In this document: positions 25,173 through 62,118 of the stretch, piece after piece | Layout: each line of letters begins with the position of its first letter | How positions within the stretch are numbered: position 1 is the stretch's first letter | DNA from: Psychroflexus planctonicus | GTDB taxonomy: Bacteria; Bacteroidota; Bacteroidia; Flavobacteriales; Flavobacteriaceae | Reading direction: 5' to 3' | Assembly: GCF_014640195.1 (NCBI RefSeq) | Contig: NZ_BMGM01000011.1 | Span: forward strand, 62,001 to 126,000 | Length of the DNA: 64,000 bases | Program-made: the position numbers and the translations under genes | The notes under the pieces: model-generated | Database searches by the model: none | What the model was told of the DNA's origin: nothing | What the model saw: the letters and a program-made list of their open reading frames with translations, nothing else

Positions 25173-25478
25173 CAAAGCCGAAAAATACGCAAGGTAACAG
25201 CACATAACAAAAATGGCGAATATATTGTTGAAACGATCCCGAAGCTTCGGGAGTGTAATTTTATAAAAGTAAAAGTTTAGCCTGCCTTTGCCGGCCTTCA
25301 GATTAGCAAAGTAAAAATTAATTGTTAAAAAGAATAAAATGGTGATATTGAAATCTTTCTTTTTTTCTTTGTTCAGTAAAAAGATACATGCAAATAATGT
25401 AGCAAATTAAAAGAAGGTTAATGTTTTGAACTCAAATTAATTAAGCTTGCGCACTTCCTGTCTTTGTATTTATTAAAG
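25173..25478. other. non-coding stretch after the TA pair
   Basis: No gene is seen. It contains ATAACAAAAATGGCGAA (25204-25220), which matches a sequence by the second TA pair at 52914, then GATCCCGAAGCTTCGGGA (25235-25252), a perfect short palindrome, and GCCTGCCTTTGCCGGC (25281-25296). These look like short mobile palindromes. The remainder is AT-rich without structure that I can name. Confidence 0.45.
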
Positions 25479-30742: not shown

Positions 30743-30763
30743 CAAATTTATGTTCTGATTTTG

Positions 30764-30842
30764 TTGGGCGAGAAGTCTATGCTGAGCGAAACCTTTGGGT
30801 TGAGCCGAAGTAAGCCCCAGCCAGATCACAAATTTATGTTCT
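30764..30842 (+). repeat. degenerate third tRNA-Lys 3' segment with its flank
   Basis: A 30-nt block covering the last 16 nt of the tRNA-Lys gene plus 14 nt of flank (AGCCCCAGCCAGATCACA...TGTTCT) at 30727-30756 is repeated exactly at 30813-30842. The sequence before it (TTTGGGTTGAGCC, 30793-30805) resembles an expanded T-arm, and the sequence before that (GAGAAGTCTATGCTGAGCG) looks like flavobacterial intergenic repeat DNA. It cannot fold as a tRNA. Confidence 0.7.
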
Positions 30843-30874
30843 AAAGTTGATTATTCAATTTTTTTTATTTACAA

Positions 30875-56911: not shown

Positions 56912-57757
56912 ATGAAAAAAGTAATTGCTTTAGTAAGTATTGCAGCCCTTTTAATGAGTTCATGTGTTTCAAAAAAGAAATTCAGTGAGCTAGAAGACAA
57001 GTATCAAGATACAAACACCGAATTAAAATCGGCTAACATGAAGTTGAGTGTTTGTGAAGATGAGAAGGCAAATATGAGGACAAGCTACGATCGCCAAATT
57101 AAAGTATTGGAAAATACCAATAATGCTTTGTTGAATACACAAGGCGAAATGGCTATCATTTCTAAAACTGGTGCAGAAAATCTTCAGAAATCTTTAGAAA
57201 GCATGCAAGAAAAAGACTTGCAAATAAAAACCATGCGCGACGCTATTAACAAAAAAGATAGTGTAACGCTTGCTTTAGTAACTAGCTTAAAAGGTGCTTT
57301 GGATAACGTAAACGACGAAGACATTGAAATTTCTGTAGAGAAAGGTGTTGTTTTTGTTTCCATTTCTGATAAATTATTATTTGGAAGCGGACAATATACC
57401 GTAACTAAAGAAGCTAGAAAAGTTTTAGAAAAAGTAGCTAAAGTAGTAAACGATAAGAAAGATTTTGAATTTATGGTAGAAGGCCATACAGATACTGACC
57501 CTATTTCTAGAGAAGTAATCGAAGACAATTGGGATTTAAGTGTGAAGCGTGCAACTTCTGTGGTTCGTATTTTACAGGATGAATTTAGTGTTGATCCAAA
57601 ACGTATGACAGCAGCTGGTCGTGGAGAGTATTTACCTGTTGCTTCTAACGATACAAGCGATGGTAAAGCTAAAAACCGTAGAACTCGAATTGTAGTTCTT
57701 CCTAAGTTAGATCAGTTCTTCGGAATGATTGAAGACGGAATGAAAAACACAAAATAA
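56912..57757 (+). CDS. OmpA family lipoprotein
   Basis: Peptidoglycan-binding outer-membrane lipoprotein of 281 residues. Lipobox LLMSSCVS, a helical coiled-coil region about residues 25-115 (ELEDKYQDTNTELKSANMKL), then an OmpA domain: ISDKLLFGSGQYTV, VEGHTDTDPI, NWDLSVKRATSVVRIL and AAGRGEYLPVASNDTSDGKA. It would anchor the envelope to peptidoglycan. Terminator at 57781. Confidence 0.93.
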   Translation: MKKVIALVSIAALLMSSCVSKKKFSELEDKYQDTNTELKSANMKLSVCEDEKANMRTSYDRQIKVLENTNNALLNTQGEMAIISKTGAENLQKSLESMQEKDLQIKTMRDAINKKDSVTLALVTSLKGALDNVNDEDIEISVEKGVVFVSISDKLLFGSGQYTVTKEARKVLEKVAKVVNDKKDFEFMVEGHTDTDPISREVIEDNWDLSVKRATSVVRILQDEFSVDPKRMTAAGRGEYLPVASNDTSDGKAKNRRTRIVVLPKLDQFFGMIEDGMKNTK

Positions 57758-57807: not shown

Positions 57808-57852
57808 TTGTATAAAACTTAAATGAAAAGTTGCTAAACTTGTAATTATACG

Positions 57853-57860
57853 TATATTTG
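57853..57860 (+). promoter_or_regulatory. promoter of the tRNA-Arg transcript
   Basis: TATATTTG with TTG 19 nt upstream (57831-57833). It lies 254 nt before the tRNA-Arg gene, so the transcript would begin with the degenerate tRNA copy and several hairpins. Confidence 0.65.
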
Positions 57861-57867
57861 CAACCGC

Positions 57868-58022
57868 AAAATAAAACTGCTTTGTAGTTTGTTCTTGCTA
57901 AGTTCATAACAAACAATAGAATTACTACTAACCTCCATTTTTTGGGAGTAAACAGCATTTGAGTTTCCAGCTTTAAGTTGGATATTATAAAAGTTTTACG
58001 CTTGAGTCTGGAATAATATAAA
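57868..58022 (+). other. long structured leader before tRNA-Arg
   Basis: No gene is seen. CTCC...GGGAG (57933-57950) and TCCAGCTT-T-AAGTTGGA (57966-57982) can form hairpins. TTGGATATTATAAAAG and CTGGAATAATATAAAG look like a diverged direct repeat before the degenerate tRNA. Confidence 0.4.
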
Positions 58023-58091
58023 GGTCGCATAGCTTCCCGAAGTATCGGGAGAAAGAGCATCCCGACCGAAAGTCGGAACGGTCACAGGTTC
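58023..58091 (+). pseudogene. degenerate tRNA-Arg copy with two arms replaced by hairpins
   Basis: It starts GGTCGCATAGCT, continues with AGAGCAT and ends ACGGTCACAGGTTC, all shared with the true tRNA-Arg 92 nt downstream. The D-loop is replaced by TCCCGA-AGTA-TCGGGA (58035-58050) and the anticodon arm by CCGAC-CGAAA-GTCGG (58062-58076). The 3' acceptor strand is missing. It has no anticodon and cannot be a decoding tRNA. Confidence 0.7.
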
Positions 58092-58114
58092 TAACTTTGA
58101 AATGAAATAATAAA

Positions 58115-58188
58115 GGTCGCGTAGCTCAGTTGGATAGAGCATCTGCCTTCTAAGCAGACGGTCACAGGTTCGAATCCTGTCGCGATCA
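58115..58188 (+). tRNA. tRNA-Arg (anticodon TCT)
   Basis: A 74-nt cloverleaf: acceptor GGTCGCG/CGCGATC (one G-T), D-arm GCTC/GAGC, anticodon arm TCTGC-CTTCTAA-GCAGA with TCT, T-arm ACAGG/CCTGT. CCA not encoded. It borders the defense island at 58334-64000. Confidence 0.96.
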
Positions 58189-58198
58189 CTTAATAATC

Positions 58199-58333: not shown

Positions 58334-61189
58334 CTAGGCTGCCATACCTTCAATAAAAGTATTGATGAAGTTGTTGATTTTGTCGATTATTCTAGGAATG
58401 CTTTTTTTACGAACTAAAATAGATTGTTTTTCTTTCATGGCTTTGCGGACTTTTTCTCGTAATGCTGGAACTTCATCAGTAAATAGTTTTTCTTCTATTA
58501 TTTTTTCTACCTTAGTTTGTTTGAGATTTTCTTCTTCACATAACTGAAAAAAAGCTTTTTGCTGTTCTTTACTCCAATACGCATCAAAAGCATCTTGAAC
58601 ACTAGCCACTTTATTGCCTACTAGTTGTTCGTCAATAAATTTTTCTATGAGTTCTTTTTTGCTTCGCAAGTCGATATCACCCGATAACAAATCTGAAACT
58701 TGTTGTCGTTTCTTTTGTTGCTCTTCAGTATCATCATTATCATTGATTTGATCTAAAAGATTTAAAATGTAAGCTACATTCACTTCATCTTTATGCATTA
58801 ACTCAATTTCGAAGTCAATATCATTTAAAATGGATGCTTTTTCAACTTCAGATTGTTCTTTGGTTTTTTCATATAAATCAAGGTATTTGCTCTTGTAATC
58901 TTCAAAAGTTTGCTCATCCATTTCCAAATCTTCAAAATCGAAATCTGAAAATGTACTTAAAGCATTTACTACACGCATTAAAGCTCTAAAGCGTTTTACA
59001 AATTGCTCTTCTTCAATTTCTGAAGTCAATTCATTTACACTATCTACACTTGGCGCAACTTCCTTTAAATCGGCTAAAGCTTCTTGAAAAGCAGCAATGT
59101 AATCTTCATAAGGCTCCATCAAGATGGTATCCTTGGCTTGTTTATTCGAAAATAACGCAATAGCTTCGTCTGTAGCTTCTTTTAAATTTCTAAATACGAC
59201 AATGTTTCCATGAGATTTTTGCTTGTTTAAAATTCGGTTGGTACGCGAATAGGCTTGAATTAATCCATGGTATTTCAAGTTTTTATCAACGTATAAGGTA
59301 TTCAAAGGTTTACTATCAAAGCCTGTCAAAAACATATTTACGACGATTAAAATATCTATCTCTTTCGATTTAACTCGTTTAGCGATATCATTGTAATAGT
59401 TGTAAAAGTCTTGGCTTGATTTGGTTGAATATTTTGTTTTAAACTGGAGATTATAATCTTCTAAATACGATTCTAAAGCTTCTCTATTATTGGTATGATA
59501 ATTAGCTTCTGGTTCAGCAACAAGCCCTAAGTCTATATTGGTTTGTCCGTCAGCACCATCAAACTCTTGATTGGCTTCGTAAGAAAATATGGTTGCGATC
59601 TTTAAATTGTGCTTGCCTGCTTCTTTCTTTGCTTTAAAAGCTTGGTAATATATTTTTAAAGCATCAATGCTACTTACGCATAGCATGGCTGTAAAATTTT
59701 TATGGTGAGTTTTAATGGGATGCGACTTGATAATGTAATCGGCAATTTTTTCAATTCTTTCTTCCGATTCTAGCACTTCTTTGGTGTTGATATCTTCTAC
59801 ATCAATATCTACGAAATTGAGACTACTTTCTGCTTTTTGTTTATACCGACCCACATATTCTATTGAAAACTTAAGTACGTTTTCGTCTCTAATGGCATCA
59901 GTAATGACATATTTGTGTAAACAATCTCCAAATAATTCTTTGGTAGTTCTTTTCCCTAATTGATTTTTTACCGCATTATCGGCAAAAATGGGTGTGCCTG
60001 TAAAGCCAAAAAGTTGAACCTTATTGAAAAAATTAGTGATGCGTTGATGTGTTTCACCAAATTGAGAACGATGGCATTCATCAAAAATAAAGACCATTTT
60101 TTCATTTTGTAAAGGCTTCATTATGGCTTCATAACGCTTGCTCATTATGGCATTATTTAGCTTTTGAATGGTGGTAACCATCAATTTAGTGTCGTTCCCA
60201 AATTGCTTTACCAGCTCTTTTGTATTGTCCGTTCCATCTACGCTACCATCTGAAAAATTATTAAATTCTACCGTAGTTTGATAGTCTAAATCTCGACGAT
60301 CTACTACAAACACTACTTTGGTAACTTCTGGAATATCTTTGATTATTTGACTTGCCTTAAAGGAAGTTAATGTTTTTCCTGAACCTGTTGTGTGCCAGAT
60401 ATAGCCATTTTTGGTTGAGTTTTTAACCCTATCAATTAATTTTTCGGTGGCATAGTACTGATAAGGTCGTAAGACCATCAAAATACGGTCGGTTTCAGCT
60501 AAGACGATGTATTGACTAATGAGTTTGGATAATTGGCAAGGCTCTAAAAAGGTTTCTGTAAATTCAGATAACTGGGTAATTTTTGAATTATCTTCTTTTG
60601 CCCAGTAAAAGGTTTGTTTATAGTTTAATGCGCGTAAACGGTTGTTGGCAAAATACTTGGTGTTTACACCATTCGAAATTACAAAGAGTTGAACCAATTG
60701 AAATAAACCCGAACCTGAACCAAAAGAATGACTTTTATAGCGTAATATTTGACGGTGCGCTTCGGCCATTTCGCAACCACGACGTTTCAGCTCGATTTGT
60801 GTTATGGGTAAACCATTGATGAGTATAGTGACATCATACCGATTGATGTACTTGCCATCTATGGTAATTTGGTTAGTAACTTGAAACTGATTTTTACACC
60901 AAGCTTGTGTATTCAAAAAATCGAAATATAAAATGTCTCCGTTATCTCGCTCGATGTGTTGCTTTTGGCGAATGAGTTTAGATCGCTCAAAAACGGAGCC
61001 TTTGTTAAGGATATTCAATACCCGTTGAAACTCTGTAGATGAAAGCTGAACAGTGTTATACTTTTCAAACTGCTGCTTCAAATTAGCCAATAACTCTGTT
61101 TCGTTTTTGATGACTATTCTTTGATAGCCTAAACCTTGTAATTGCTTTAGGAGCTGTTCTTCAAGTGCTGCTTCGCTTTGTCTAGTCAT
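58334..61189 (-). CDS. hsdR: type I restriction enzyme subunit R (HsdR)
   Basis: Motor/nuclease subunit of a type I restriction system, 951 residues from ATG 61189 (MTRQSEAALEEQL). The nuclease core has D119 and ELK at 133-135 (ITQIELKRRG), then RecA-like helicase motifs: Walker A WHTTGSGKT (lysine near 272), DECH in FIFDECHRSQ near 370, and QAYSRTNRILN (motif VI). The C-terminal third is helical. The ATG starts 5 nt after the Abi stop; a longer reading that overlaps Abi is possible but less likely. Confidence 0.95.
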   Translation of the reverse strand: MTRQSEAALEEQLLKQLQGLGYQRIVIKNETELLANLKQQFEKYNTVQLSSTEFQRVLNILNKGSVFERSKLIRQKQHIERDNGDILYFDFLNTQAWCKNQFQVTNQITIDGKYINRYDVTILINGLPITQIELKRRGCEMAEAHRQILRYKSHSFGSGSGLFQLVQLFVISNGVNTKYFANNRLRALNYKQTFYWAKEDNSKITQLSEFTETFLEPCQLSKLISQYIVLAETDRILMVLRPYQYYATEKLIDRVKNSTKNGYIWHTTGSGKTLTSFKASQIIKDIPEVTKVVFVVDRRDLDYQTTVEFNNFSDGSVDGTDNTKELVKQFGNDTKLMVTTIQKLNNAIMSKRYEAIMKPLQNEKMVFIFDECHRSQFGETHQRITNFFNKVQLFGFTGTPIFADNAVKNQLGKRTTKELFGDCLHKYVITDAIRDENVLKFSIEYVGRYKQKAESSLNFVDIDVEDINTKEVLESEERIEKIADYIIKSHPIKTHHKNFTAMLCVSSIDALKIYYQAFKAKKEAGKHNLKIATIFSYEANQEFDGADGQTNIDLGLVAEPEANYHTNNREALESYLEDYNLQFKTKYSTKSSQDFYNYYNDIAKRVKSKEIDILIVVNMFLTGFDSKPLNTLYVDKNLKYHGLIQAYSRTNRILNKQKSHGNIVVFRNLKEATDEAIALFSNKQAKDTILMEPYEDYIAAFQEALADLKEVAPSVDSVNELTSEIEEEQFVKRFRALMRVVNALSTFSDFDFEDLEMDEQTFEDYKSKYLDLYEKTKEQSEVEKASILNDIDFEIELMHKDEVNVAYILNLLDQINDNDDTEEQQKKRQQVSDLLSGDIDLRSKKELIEKFIDEQLVGNKVASVQDAFDAYWSKEQQKAFFQLCEEENLKQTKVEKIIEEKLFTDEVPALREKVRKAMKEKQSILVRKKSIPRIIDKINNFINTFIEGMAA

Positions 61190-61194
61190 AGTGT

Positions 61195-62118
61195 TTAAAT
61201 TTTCCAAACGGGTTCTTCCATCCAATTAAGCTTCATACCTAAAGCATTTTGGTCTACTTTAGGATATTTATTGAATAGTTGGTACAATTGTCTTTTGAAA
61301 TCATTGTTGGGTTGAATTGTATTTAATAAATATTTCATCAAAGTCATGTGAATGTACAATTTCTGAAACTCATGTTGTTTAGGTACATTTTCAGTTTTAA
61401 TTATCCACGGATTGGGTGGCTTTGATAATAATTTAACTGTTCCTGGCAAATTTCTGTTCCATAATCTTGAATGATGTGCACAAAAGTTTCTTATTTGTGC
61501 AATGGACTGTAACCAGCTTGGTAAATAGGTATGGTTAACAGCTCCAAATTCTACTGCAATAGAATCTTTAGATTGGACGCTTGGTTTTAAGTTACCGTAA
61601 AGCTTAGATAATGCTCCAAAACTGGTTTGTTCTAAGGATTTCCAAGCAGGTGGAAATCGTTTGTCATCTTTATGGTTTTTAAAATGATTTTTAATTGTTA
61701 CATCTTTAGATCGTGTAAGCTCTTCTTGTAAGTTAGATAGTGTTTTGACTAAAGCCATACTATCTGTAAATAAATCAAAATTTTGAAACCACCATGGATC
61801 TACTTCATGCGATAGATGATAGATTAGTTTAGTTCTTAAACTAATTTCAATTTTTTCAATGACTTCAAATAAAAGTAACCTTAACTCAGCATCAAAATTA
61901 TATAAGGCAATAACATCATCAAAATTACTATTAGGCTTAAAAACATGATTTAGCTTATCTGATTGCATCACATACCAATACTCACCTAAGCGATAGTAAC
62001 TTATATTAGAGAGATACTTTTCTGCTAACTTAGTTTTAGATATAGTCAAGCCTCTATCTTGTAGTTGCTTGATTTGTTGCTTTATGGTCAAGGGTTTTTT
62101 GCTAAACATGGTGTGCAT
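61195..62118 (-). CDS. Abi_2 (AbiD/AbiF) family HEPN protein
   Basis: Abortive-infection protein of 307 residues. The N-terminus (TIKQQIKQLQDRGLTISK, YLSNISYYRLGEYWYV) is typical of Abi_2. Two RxxxxH-type HEPN motifs are visible: R95-TKLIY-H101 (Rx5H) and R210-NFCA-H215 (Rx4H, in RNFCAHHSRLWNR). HEPN proteins of this kind are RNases; the Abi_2 family includes AbiF, reported as an ancestor of Cas13 and controlled by a small RNA. A TAGTTTTG box lies 13-20 nt before the ATG, and a structured RNA lies just upstream. Alternative ATG at 62109. It is embedded in a type I R-M operon. Confidence 0.9.
   Translation of the reverse strand: MHTMFSKKPLTIKQQIKQLQDRGLTISKTKLAEKYLSNISYYRLGEYWYVMQSDKLNHVFKPNSNFDDVIALYNFDAELRLLLFEVIEKIEISLRTKLIYHLSHEVDPWWFQNFDLFTDSMALVKTLSNLQEELTRSKDVTIKNHFKNHKDDKRFPPAWKSLEQTSFGALSKLYGNLKPSVQSKDSIAVEFGAVNHTYLPSWLQSIAQIRNFCAHHSRLWNRNLPGTVKLLSKPPNPWIIKTENVPKQHEFQKLYIHMTLMKYLLNTIQPNNDFKRQLYQLFNKYPKVDQNALGMKLNWMEEPVWKI

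Follow-up and report, generated by a model that had tools for sequence, protein, structure and literature searches.

The window, i.e. the whole 64,000-nucleotide stretch of DNA analysed, is a part of contig C11 of our Psychroflexus genome G000 (3.11 Mb in 34 contigs). It carries an intact tRNA-Arg(TCT) gene preceded by a partial copy of the same gene, the copy being situated between the promoter-like stretch of the tRNA-Arg unit and the intact gene (Table 1). The term promoter-like refers to the -33/-7 consensus of Bacteroidetes promoters. Upstream of the unit lies an OmpA-like gene (56912-57757, named from reading), whose product has its nearest named relatives in Psychroflexus species, with that of P. 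salis as the closest (94%; records of the own genome were possibly excluded). The leader sequence upstream of the copy (57870-58022) contains more hairpin-like and repeated pieces (TTTAAGTTGGATATTATAAAA, GAGTCTGGAATAATATAAA) that resemble older, decayed units of the same kind. Two minus-strand ORFs, one resembling the R subunit of type I restriction systems and the other Abi-like, both named from their translations, occupy positions 58334-62118, just past the tRNA-Arg terminator.

Table 1. Features of the window related to tRNA genes, their partial copies, and palindromes
Feature	Coordinates	Strand	Basis or remark
Promoter-like stretch (TTGC ... TATATTTG) of the tRNA-Arg unit	57831..57860	+	Sequence; identical in P. 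salis (L031)
Partial tRNA-Arg(TCT) copy, from position 1 to the T-loop C	58023..58091	+	Lacks the 3' T-stem and 3' acceptor strand
Palindrome TCCCGAAGTATCGGGA replacing the D-loop	58035..58050	+	Sequence, shuffles, genome-wide pattern count
Palindrome TCCCGACCGAAAGTCGGAA replacing the anticodon arm, one C-A mismatch	58060..58078	+	Sequence, alignment of relatives' palindromes
A/T-rich leader with TTTGAAATGAAATA, from the copy to the intact tRNA	58092..58114	+	Sequence; leaders alike in relatives
Intact tRNA-Arg(TCT)	58115..58189	+	ARAGORN; Rfam RF00005, 73.8 bits
3' partial tRNA-Lys copy, T-loop replaced by a longer palindrome-like insert	30764..30829	+	Script and reading
Palindrome TCCCGAAGCTTCGGGA of the same class	25237..25252	+	Neither a local repeat nor a tRNA copy observed nearby

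The copy retains three pieces of the tRNA-Arg sequence, GGTCGCA-TAGCT (58023-58034), AGAGCA (58054-58059), and CGGTCACAGGTTC (58079-58091), while its D-loop and anticodon arm have been exchanged for hairpins, just as an earlier, sequence-only reading of the locus had described. That reading regarded both hairpins as perfect and as unrelated to each other. The first, TCCCGA-AGTA-TCGGGA, is indeed a perfect 6-bp palindrome, but the second, TCCCGAC-CGAAA-GTCGGAA, has C58061 opposite A58077 and is perfect only in its inner 5 bp; nor are the two unrelated, since both begin with TCCCGA. The copy stops at the T-loop C at 58091, where an unrelated leader starts, and it has neither a closed acceptor stem nor a complete T arm. 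A functional tRNA at 58023-58091 is ruled out by ARAGORN, which calls none there, and by Rfam, whose tRNA covariance model RF00005 has no match listed at this position up to an E value of 1. The predicted RNA fold of the copy is not a cloverleaf, its 5' acceptor strand pairing with part of the second palindrome. A six-frame search of the window with a home-made GIY-YIG profile detected no GIY-YIG ORF, and the locus itself comprises a tRNA fragment but no nuclease ORF. An rRNA-type boxA antitermination leader (TTGAAATA) was also considered and rejected: the motif recurs in leaders, but a boxA-like consensus gave 50 and 39 matches in the own genome against 27 and 43 for the control, and no boxA claim is made.

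Both hairpins belong to a broader set of palindromes. The likeness of the first one to a palindrome at 25235-25252, pointed out previously, was confirmed by pattern search and shuffles, a palindrome of the same class occupying 25237-25252. The pattern TCCCGA-N3..12-TCGGGA is found at two sites of the window (58035 and 25237) and in none of 100 dinucleotide shuffles; genome-wide, with a spacer of N3..14, it has 19 sites versus 1 for the reversed pattern, every palindromic site being listed on both strands in this count. The shorter-arm form CCCGA-N2..8-TCGGG has 22 sites in G000 versus 3 for the reversed control, and 8 of the 22 lie within about 210 bp of a tRNA when positions are compared by hand. 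The palindromes vary in sequence and some occur away from tRNAs, and the class is dispersed over the genome in the manner of REP-type elements. Repeats of ~100 bp with palindromes such as TCCCGAGAAACGnAGTGAATCGGGA are located at about 90-132 kb of contig C4 (L080-L083) and at about 450 kb of contig C1 (L075) of G000, the C4 stretch also containing three GIY-YIG genes with no tRNA match nearby in the Rfam-based list. At G000:C1:296225-296238 (L282) a CCCGACGTTTCGGG palindrome is followed by CGATATTCTCCAC, the 3' end of tRNA-Ala; the tRNA-Ala gene lies about 7.5 kb away and no tRNA is called within that locus.

Partial copies of a tRNA beside the gene they derive from are present at 14 tRNA loci of G000, most of them with a palindrome in or beside a loop. 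Nine of these loci were found by a script and five by eye. The script flagged 16 of 32 tRNA entries (from 30 loci fetched out of 35 Rfam matches) versus 0 of 938 mismatched pairs, and 13 of 32 versus 2 of 938 in P. salis. After removal of trivial rows from the 16 (two Thr, two Gly/Leu similarities, two Glu, and a double count of Lys), the loci of Arg, Gly-tcc, Lys, Met, Asp, fMet, Gln, Pro-ggg, and Leu-caa were kept; Leu-taa, Asn, Leu-tag, Pro-tgg, and Phe were added by eye, the 0/938 control covering the script only. Upstream copies, composed of 5' parts, accompany Arg, fMet (two copies), Leu-tag, Leu-caa, Pro-ggg, and Pro-tgg, while downstream copies, composed of 3' parts and often followed by a duplicated terminator, accompany Gly-tcc, Lys, Met, Asp, Asn, Gln, Leu-taa, Pro-ggg, and Phe. 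Most palindrome-capped copies of G000 have no nuclease gene beside them (Arg, Asp, Asn, Gly, Lys, Met, both Pro, Leu-taa, Leu-tag).

The tRNA-Lys locus of the window (30744-30874) comprises a partial copy flanked by two identical tRNA-Lys genes, with the insert GAGAAGTCTATGCTGAGC...CGAAGTAA in the T-loop. Inserts related to this one are located in the T-loop of the tRNA-Gln and tRNA-Gly copies elsewhere in the genome. The Gln copy is common to G000 and P. salis, with related T-loop inserts; at these loci (L270, L326) the flank, the terminator, and the tRNA end of parent and copy agree within each species, while flank and terminator differ between the species, which indicates concerted evolution. 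Any difference between an inserted and a native end, which would indicate transfer from another species, may consequently have been homogenised. The Asp copy is absent from P. salis, and a Val copy of P. salis, devoid of a palindrome, is absent from G000.

The locus was then compared with 161 copies of tRNA-Arg(TCT) at loci from the genus, the family, and the order. A partial copy with the anticodon arm replaced by a palindrome is present at 13 of them (L001, L002, L003, L004, L007, L024, L071, L072, L112, L182, L189, L196, L197), and other palindromes are found in the partial copy at 10 further loci (L011, L015, L029, L088, L166, L178, L186, L190, L193, L232). At least 12 loci carry a 3' fragment with no short G+C-rich palindrome visible by eye (L007, L019, L028, L113, L159, L167, L174, L185, L231, L232, L235, L237), L007 and L232 appearing in both kinds of list through different copies. 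The script flagged 78 of the 161, many because of similarity to a neighbouring intact tRNA, mostly tRNA-Pro, and these were set aside by eye; the 5' copy of L007, unflagged, was added by reading, and L026, which has the anticodon palindrome, failed the regular expression and stands outside the 161. An earlier, strict pattern hit 2 of 299 genomes, which is not a prevalence figure because the pattern missed the window copy itself. Several Psychroflexus species, including P. salis, have no copy beside tRNA-Arg(TCT), and the copies must therefore turn over fast.

The search of related genomes suggested by the sequence-only reading thus found the same anticodon-arm replacement in relatives. The copy is not an assembly slip, because comparable copies are present in assemblies from other species and genera, and shuffles together with the other genomes rule out chance or assembly error as its source. 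The opinion that point decay would not make such stems is upheld, and the location of palindromes in tRNA loops holds for the own genome and the relatives alike. What had not been recognised is that the copy belongs to a genome- and family-wide class, partly tied to tRNA-adjacent GIY-YIG genes. In 21 anticodon-arm palindromes the stem is paired in 96.3% of cells, 3 of its 7 pairs are changed on both sides, and its covariation score was reached by none of 500 shuffles, while the loops differ freely; palindromes yield compensatory pairs without any selection on RNA, so this covariation is not a proof of RNA function.

The class extends to T-loops in the family. The pattern GGTTC-YCCCGA-N2..6-TCGGGR was found in 20 of 298 family genomes, with 0 for the reversed control. 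Thirty loci with the motif were fetched, 28 of which the script could centre; these represent 23 separate places, since five pairs overlap. A same-strand tRNA gene lies within 1 kb in 25 of the 28, and in 19 the motif is followed by at least 9 nt of the 3' end of its own tRNA, which is tRNA-Phe, Cys, Val, Leu, Pro, Gly, or Arg.

The association with GIY-YIG genes is observed at tRNA-Arg(TCT) itself. A GIY-YIG gene lies within 700 bp at 6 of the 161 loci, and all 6 are among the 13 with an anticodon palindrome (Fisher 7.8e-8, a guide only, related genomes being not independent); the other 7 of the 13 have no GIY-YIG gene within 700 bp, L182 being cut by a contig end. In the six loci (L002, L003, L024, L071, L112, L197) tRNA-Arg is followed first by a terminator, then by an ORF of ~90 codons, and finally by a 3' tRNA fragment with the anticodon palindrome, which is half lost in L071. 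The protein of L112 is recognised as a Pfam GIY-YIG domain with E 9.3e-15. The full anatomy is displayed by L026, comprising in turn a 5' copy, the tRNA, a terminator, the nuclease gene, a 3' copy, a terminator, a nuclease remnant, and a 3' copy.

In G000, PF01541 has 12 hits, or 10 once two in long ORFs are dropped. Four of these ORFs lie within 80 bp of a same-strand tRNA: ~75 bp behind tRNA-Phe, 47 behind tRNA-His, 39 behind tRNA-fMet, and 61 before tRNA-Leu(caa). The hit at fMet, truncated by a contig end, falls below the Pfam cut-off; a second copy of the fMet nuclease gene, behind a palindrome-capped fMet fragment, ends contig C10, and the fMet array probably spans the gap between the ends of contigs C7 and C10. 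A fifth gene, not counted among the tRNA-GIY loci described below, lies 551 bp from tRNA-Gln on the opposite strand. With an assumed tRNA-neighbourhood coverage of 1.2%, which is our own estimate, the binomial probability of 5 of 10 genes near a tRNA is 6e-8. At Phe, fMet, and Leu a palindrome-capped fragment of the same tRNA is located on the far side of the nuclease gene; at His there is none.

A wider sample comprised 58 high-scoring GIY-YIG loci from 27 Psychroflexus and 60 family genomes. Nine of them have a tRNA call within 700 bp, always on the same strand, 49 have none, and the script found a tRNA fragment in 7 of the 9. One of these loci, L357, is the tRNA-Arg locus of G017 (C15) again, where ARAGORN took the palindrome-capped fragment for tRNA-Phe(aaa). 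Altogether, in 17 of 19 distinct tRNA-GIY loci the nuclease gene is flanked, on the side away from the tRNA, by a fragment of that tRNA (Arg-tct in 7 loci, Phe, Arg-acg, and Asp in 2 each, and fMet, Leu-caa, Ser, and Arg-tcg in 1 each), while both tRNA-His loci have no fragment; the sample is not blind, L026 having been noticed through its fragments and the L381 fragment having been found by eye. Where the nuclease gene is 5' of the tRNA (L349, L352, L365, L381), the fragment covers approximately positions 1-22 and the palindrome lies in or beside the D arm; where it is 3', the fragment derives from the 3' part of the tRNA and has its palindrome mostly in the anticodon arm or T-loop. The nuclease stop codon falls inside tRNA or fragment sequence in 11 of the 19 loci, and inside the D-loop of the intact tRNA in L349, L352, and L381.

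The palindrome is strong in 14 of the 17 far-side fragments and weaker or longer-looped in L071, L338, and L381; L338 also has an upstream 5' copy with TCCCGAAGATTCGGGA. A hairpin score of at least 14 was reached by 13 of 16 fragments, picked after reading and not blindly, versus 422 of 4000 stretches taken at random from these loci. For L365 the piece scored was that between nuclease gene and tRNA, the far-side piece being scored separately (16), and L352 was judged from its sequence. The cassette anatomy recurs in several tRNA types and genera, and tandem units of fragment plus nuclease gene are present, two each in L112, L349, and L358, all from relatives; the window locus has no nuclease gene and no tandem unit. 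Two longer tandem arrays were seen as well, one of eight GIY-YIG genes about 365 bp apart (G012:C34:6991-9748) and one of three such genes 304 bp apart (G075:C1:190101-190909).

Judging by the aligned proteins, kinship of the putative nucleases tracks tRNA type in part only. When the type of the neighbouring tRNA is mapped on a tree of 36 GIY-YIG rows, 11 changes are needed versus 21.2 for shuffled labels (0 of 200 as low), although this test is inflated by near-copies and based on a short alignment. Those nucleases of Psychroflexus and three other genera that adjoin tRNA-Arg(tct) fall on one side of a weak branch (82/94), shared by the Psychroflexus Phe nucleases as a 100/99 clade, and the Arg-tct nucleases form one group in only 40% of bootstrap trees; the His and Asp labels do not cluster. 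The L112 nuclease had no match in a phage collection at E 1e-3, and none of 384 plasmid records covered 80% of the query, the 20 records listed reaching at most 52%, over its tRNA part. The PDB gave one weak match, to the UPF0213 protein 1zg2 (E 0.0077). No description of palindrome-bearing tRNA fragments or of bacterial tRNA-linked GIY-YIG genes was found in the titles and abstract openings searched, which included few subscription papers.

We consider it somewhat more probable than the opposite (roughly 0.55) that the window copy is a non-functional tRNA-Arg fragment, an ORF-less relic of tRNA-invading, gene-end-duplicating GIY-YIG cassettes of Flavobacteriaceae. A complete cassette of this kind comprises a ~90-codon GIY-YIG gene with an intact tRNA on one side and a fragment of that tRNA on the other. 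This arrangement looks as though the cassette had entered a tRNA gene at a loop and had brought along or duplicated what was missing, thereby restoring one functional tRNA; in the displaced fragment a short palindrome usually stands in place of a loop. The nuclease may cut tRNA genes and drive the duplication by break repair, and the palindrome may destroy the cut site in the redundant fragment, shielding the latter from the nuclease; tandem arrays could then grow by recombination between the repeated tRNA parts. The intact tRNA keeps the presumed cut site and loop, which counts against the simple version of such protection. Further points against this reading are that no GIY-YIG gene accompanies the window copy, most of the capped copies of G000, or 7 of the 13 anticodon-palindrome tRNA-Arg loci, that 49 of the 58 high-scoring GIY-YIG loci have no tRNA within 700 bp, that some fragments show no palindrome, that the palindromes vary and also occur away from tRNAs, that both His loci are devoid of a fragment, and that the tree follows tRNA type only in part. 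The window copy may once have been a part of such a unit whose nuclease gene has since been lost; having no nuclease gene beside it, it is to be regarded as a relic or an ORF-less relative and not as a member of a homing-cassette family.

The best-surviving alternative, which we regard as unlikely though worth serious attention, is that tandem tRNA duplication produced redundant partial copies, that dispersed REP-like palindromes landed in their loops and were tolerated only there, and that the GIY-YIG genes came independently to occupy these safe sites as passengers. This explanation accommodates the dispersal of the palindrome class (19 sites versus 1), partly far from tRNAs, the family of T-loop inserts shared by the Lys, Gln, and Gly copies, the lack of a nuclease gene at most G000 copies and of a palindrome in some copies, and the concerted evolution of the flanks at Gln, where those of copy and parent agree. 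It is opposed by the presence of an anticodon-palindrome copy, found at only 13 of 161 tRNA-Arg loci, at all six of those bearing a GIY-YIG gene, by the position of the fragment on the far side of the nuclease gene in 17 of 19 loci, and by the ORFs that often end inside tRNA sequence.

Tyrosine recombinases that target tRNA genes use sites in the T-loop, anticodon loop, and D-loop, near which the copies begin or end. The copies could accordingly be viewed as attachment-site scars of elements with such recombinases, with the palindrome as the inverted repeat at the core of a hybrid att site, and a complete tRNA followed by 3' fragments, with the flank of a relative beyond the last of them (L011 compared with L014), is in agreement with this idea. 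It is nevertheless improbable, since the segments read between tRNA and fragment, at tens to about 600 bp, leave no room for an integrase gene, and since upstream 5' fragments are not expected from such elements. Least probable of all is that the copy is a selected RNA, be it the tRNA mimic proposed by the sequence-only reading, a decoy, or a leader tuning tRNA-Arg maturation: it lies between promoter and tRNA and is therefore probably transcribed, the anticodon-arm stem covaries as described, and the folding z is -3.3 for 58023-58114, but z is only -1.8 for 58023-58091 alone, compensatory pairs arise from palindromes without selection, copies are gained and lost between sister species, and a mimic is unsupported by a molecule with no closed acceptor stem or T arm, no Rfam tRNA match, and a fold unlike that of a tRNA.

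A scar of tRNA-targeting selfish cassettes is thus more likely than a working tRNA mimic. A broader proposal is put forward tentatively, as one that we hold to be possible but short of even odds: that Flavobacteriaceae chromosomes carry selfish cassettes specialised on tRNA genes, in which a tiny putative GIY-YIG nuclease opens the gene at a loop, the cassette resupplies the lost part, and the palindrome makes the displaced half uncuttable, with lineages tending to one tRNA type and the window copy being a fossil. If this were true, there would be, besides splicing introns and inteins, a further way for a homing element to inhabit an essential gene, namely one in which homing into essential RNA genes needs no splicing, and many of the aberrant tRNA-like sequences, stray tRNA calls, and small GIY-YIG nucleases whose tails are encoded by tRNA sequence in these genomes would share one cause. 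Filled, decaying, and empty sites would form a natural series, and the target choice of small GIY-YIG nucleases could be tested in vitro. For annotators, palindrome-capped fragments are a likely source of false tRNA annotations.

Several known systems resemble the cassettes in part. REP-type and Rickettsia palindromic elements are short dispersed palindromes; unlike them, the palindromes described here are tied to loops in partial tRNA copies that adjoin their parent gene. Integrative elements that target tRNA genes rebuild the end of the tRNA they interrupt, and a complete tRNA with a displaced fragment is found here too, but the segments are too short for an integrase and fragments also occur upstream. 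The passages considered on SegB of phage T6 describe a tRNA-linked, free-standing GIY-YIG homing endonuclease of T-even phages with demonstrated cleavage; its authors propose that the 5' part of a tRNA gene recombines with the 3' part of segB through microhomology (PMC13096335). The two systems share a GIY-YIG gene located next to tRNA genes and the tandem multiplication of tRNA-nuclease segments; as to the recombination proposed for SegB, the 3' end of the nuclease ORF often runs into tRNA sequence in the cassettes described here (PMC13096335). SegB is a phage enzyme, and palindrome-capped tRNA fragments are not noted in those passages, whereas the cassettes considered here reside in bacterial chromosomes and their nuclease is putative (PMC13096335). 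In fungal mitochondria, according to the passages considered, mobile endonuclease ORFs duplicate gene ends, as in atp6 of Allomyces and atp6, atp9, cox2, and nad3 of Glomus (PMC3630166). The likeness to these ORFs, of which that in atp9 is of the GIY-YIG type, lies in a nuclease ORF that enters a gene and supplies a new end, the native end being displaced beyond the ORF (PMC3630166). The fungal ORFs, as described there, affect the 3' ends of mitochondrial protein genes, whereas in the cassettes of Flavobacteriaceae the genes are those of tRNAs, both 5' and 3' ends are involved, and the displaced part carries palindromes (PMC3630166).
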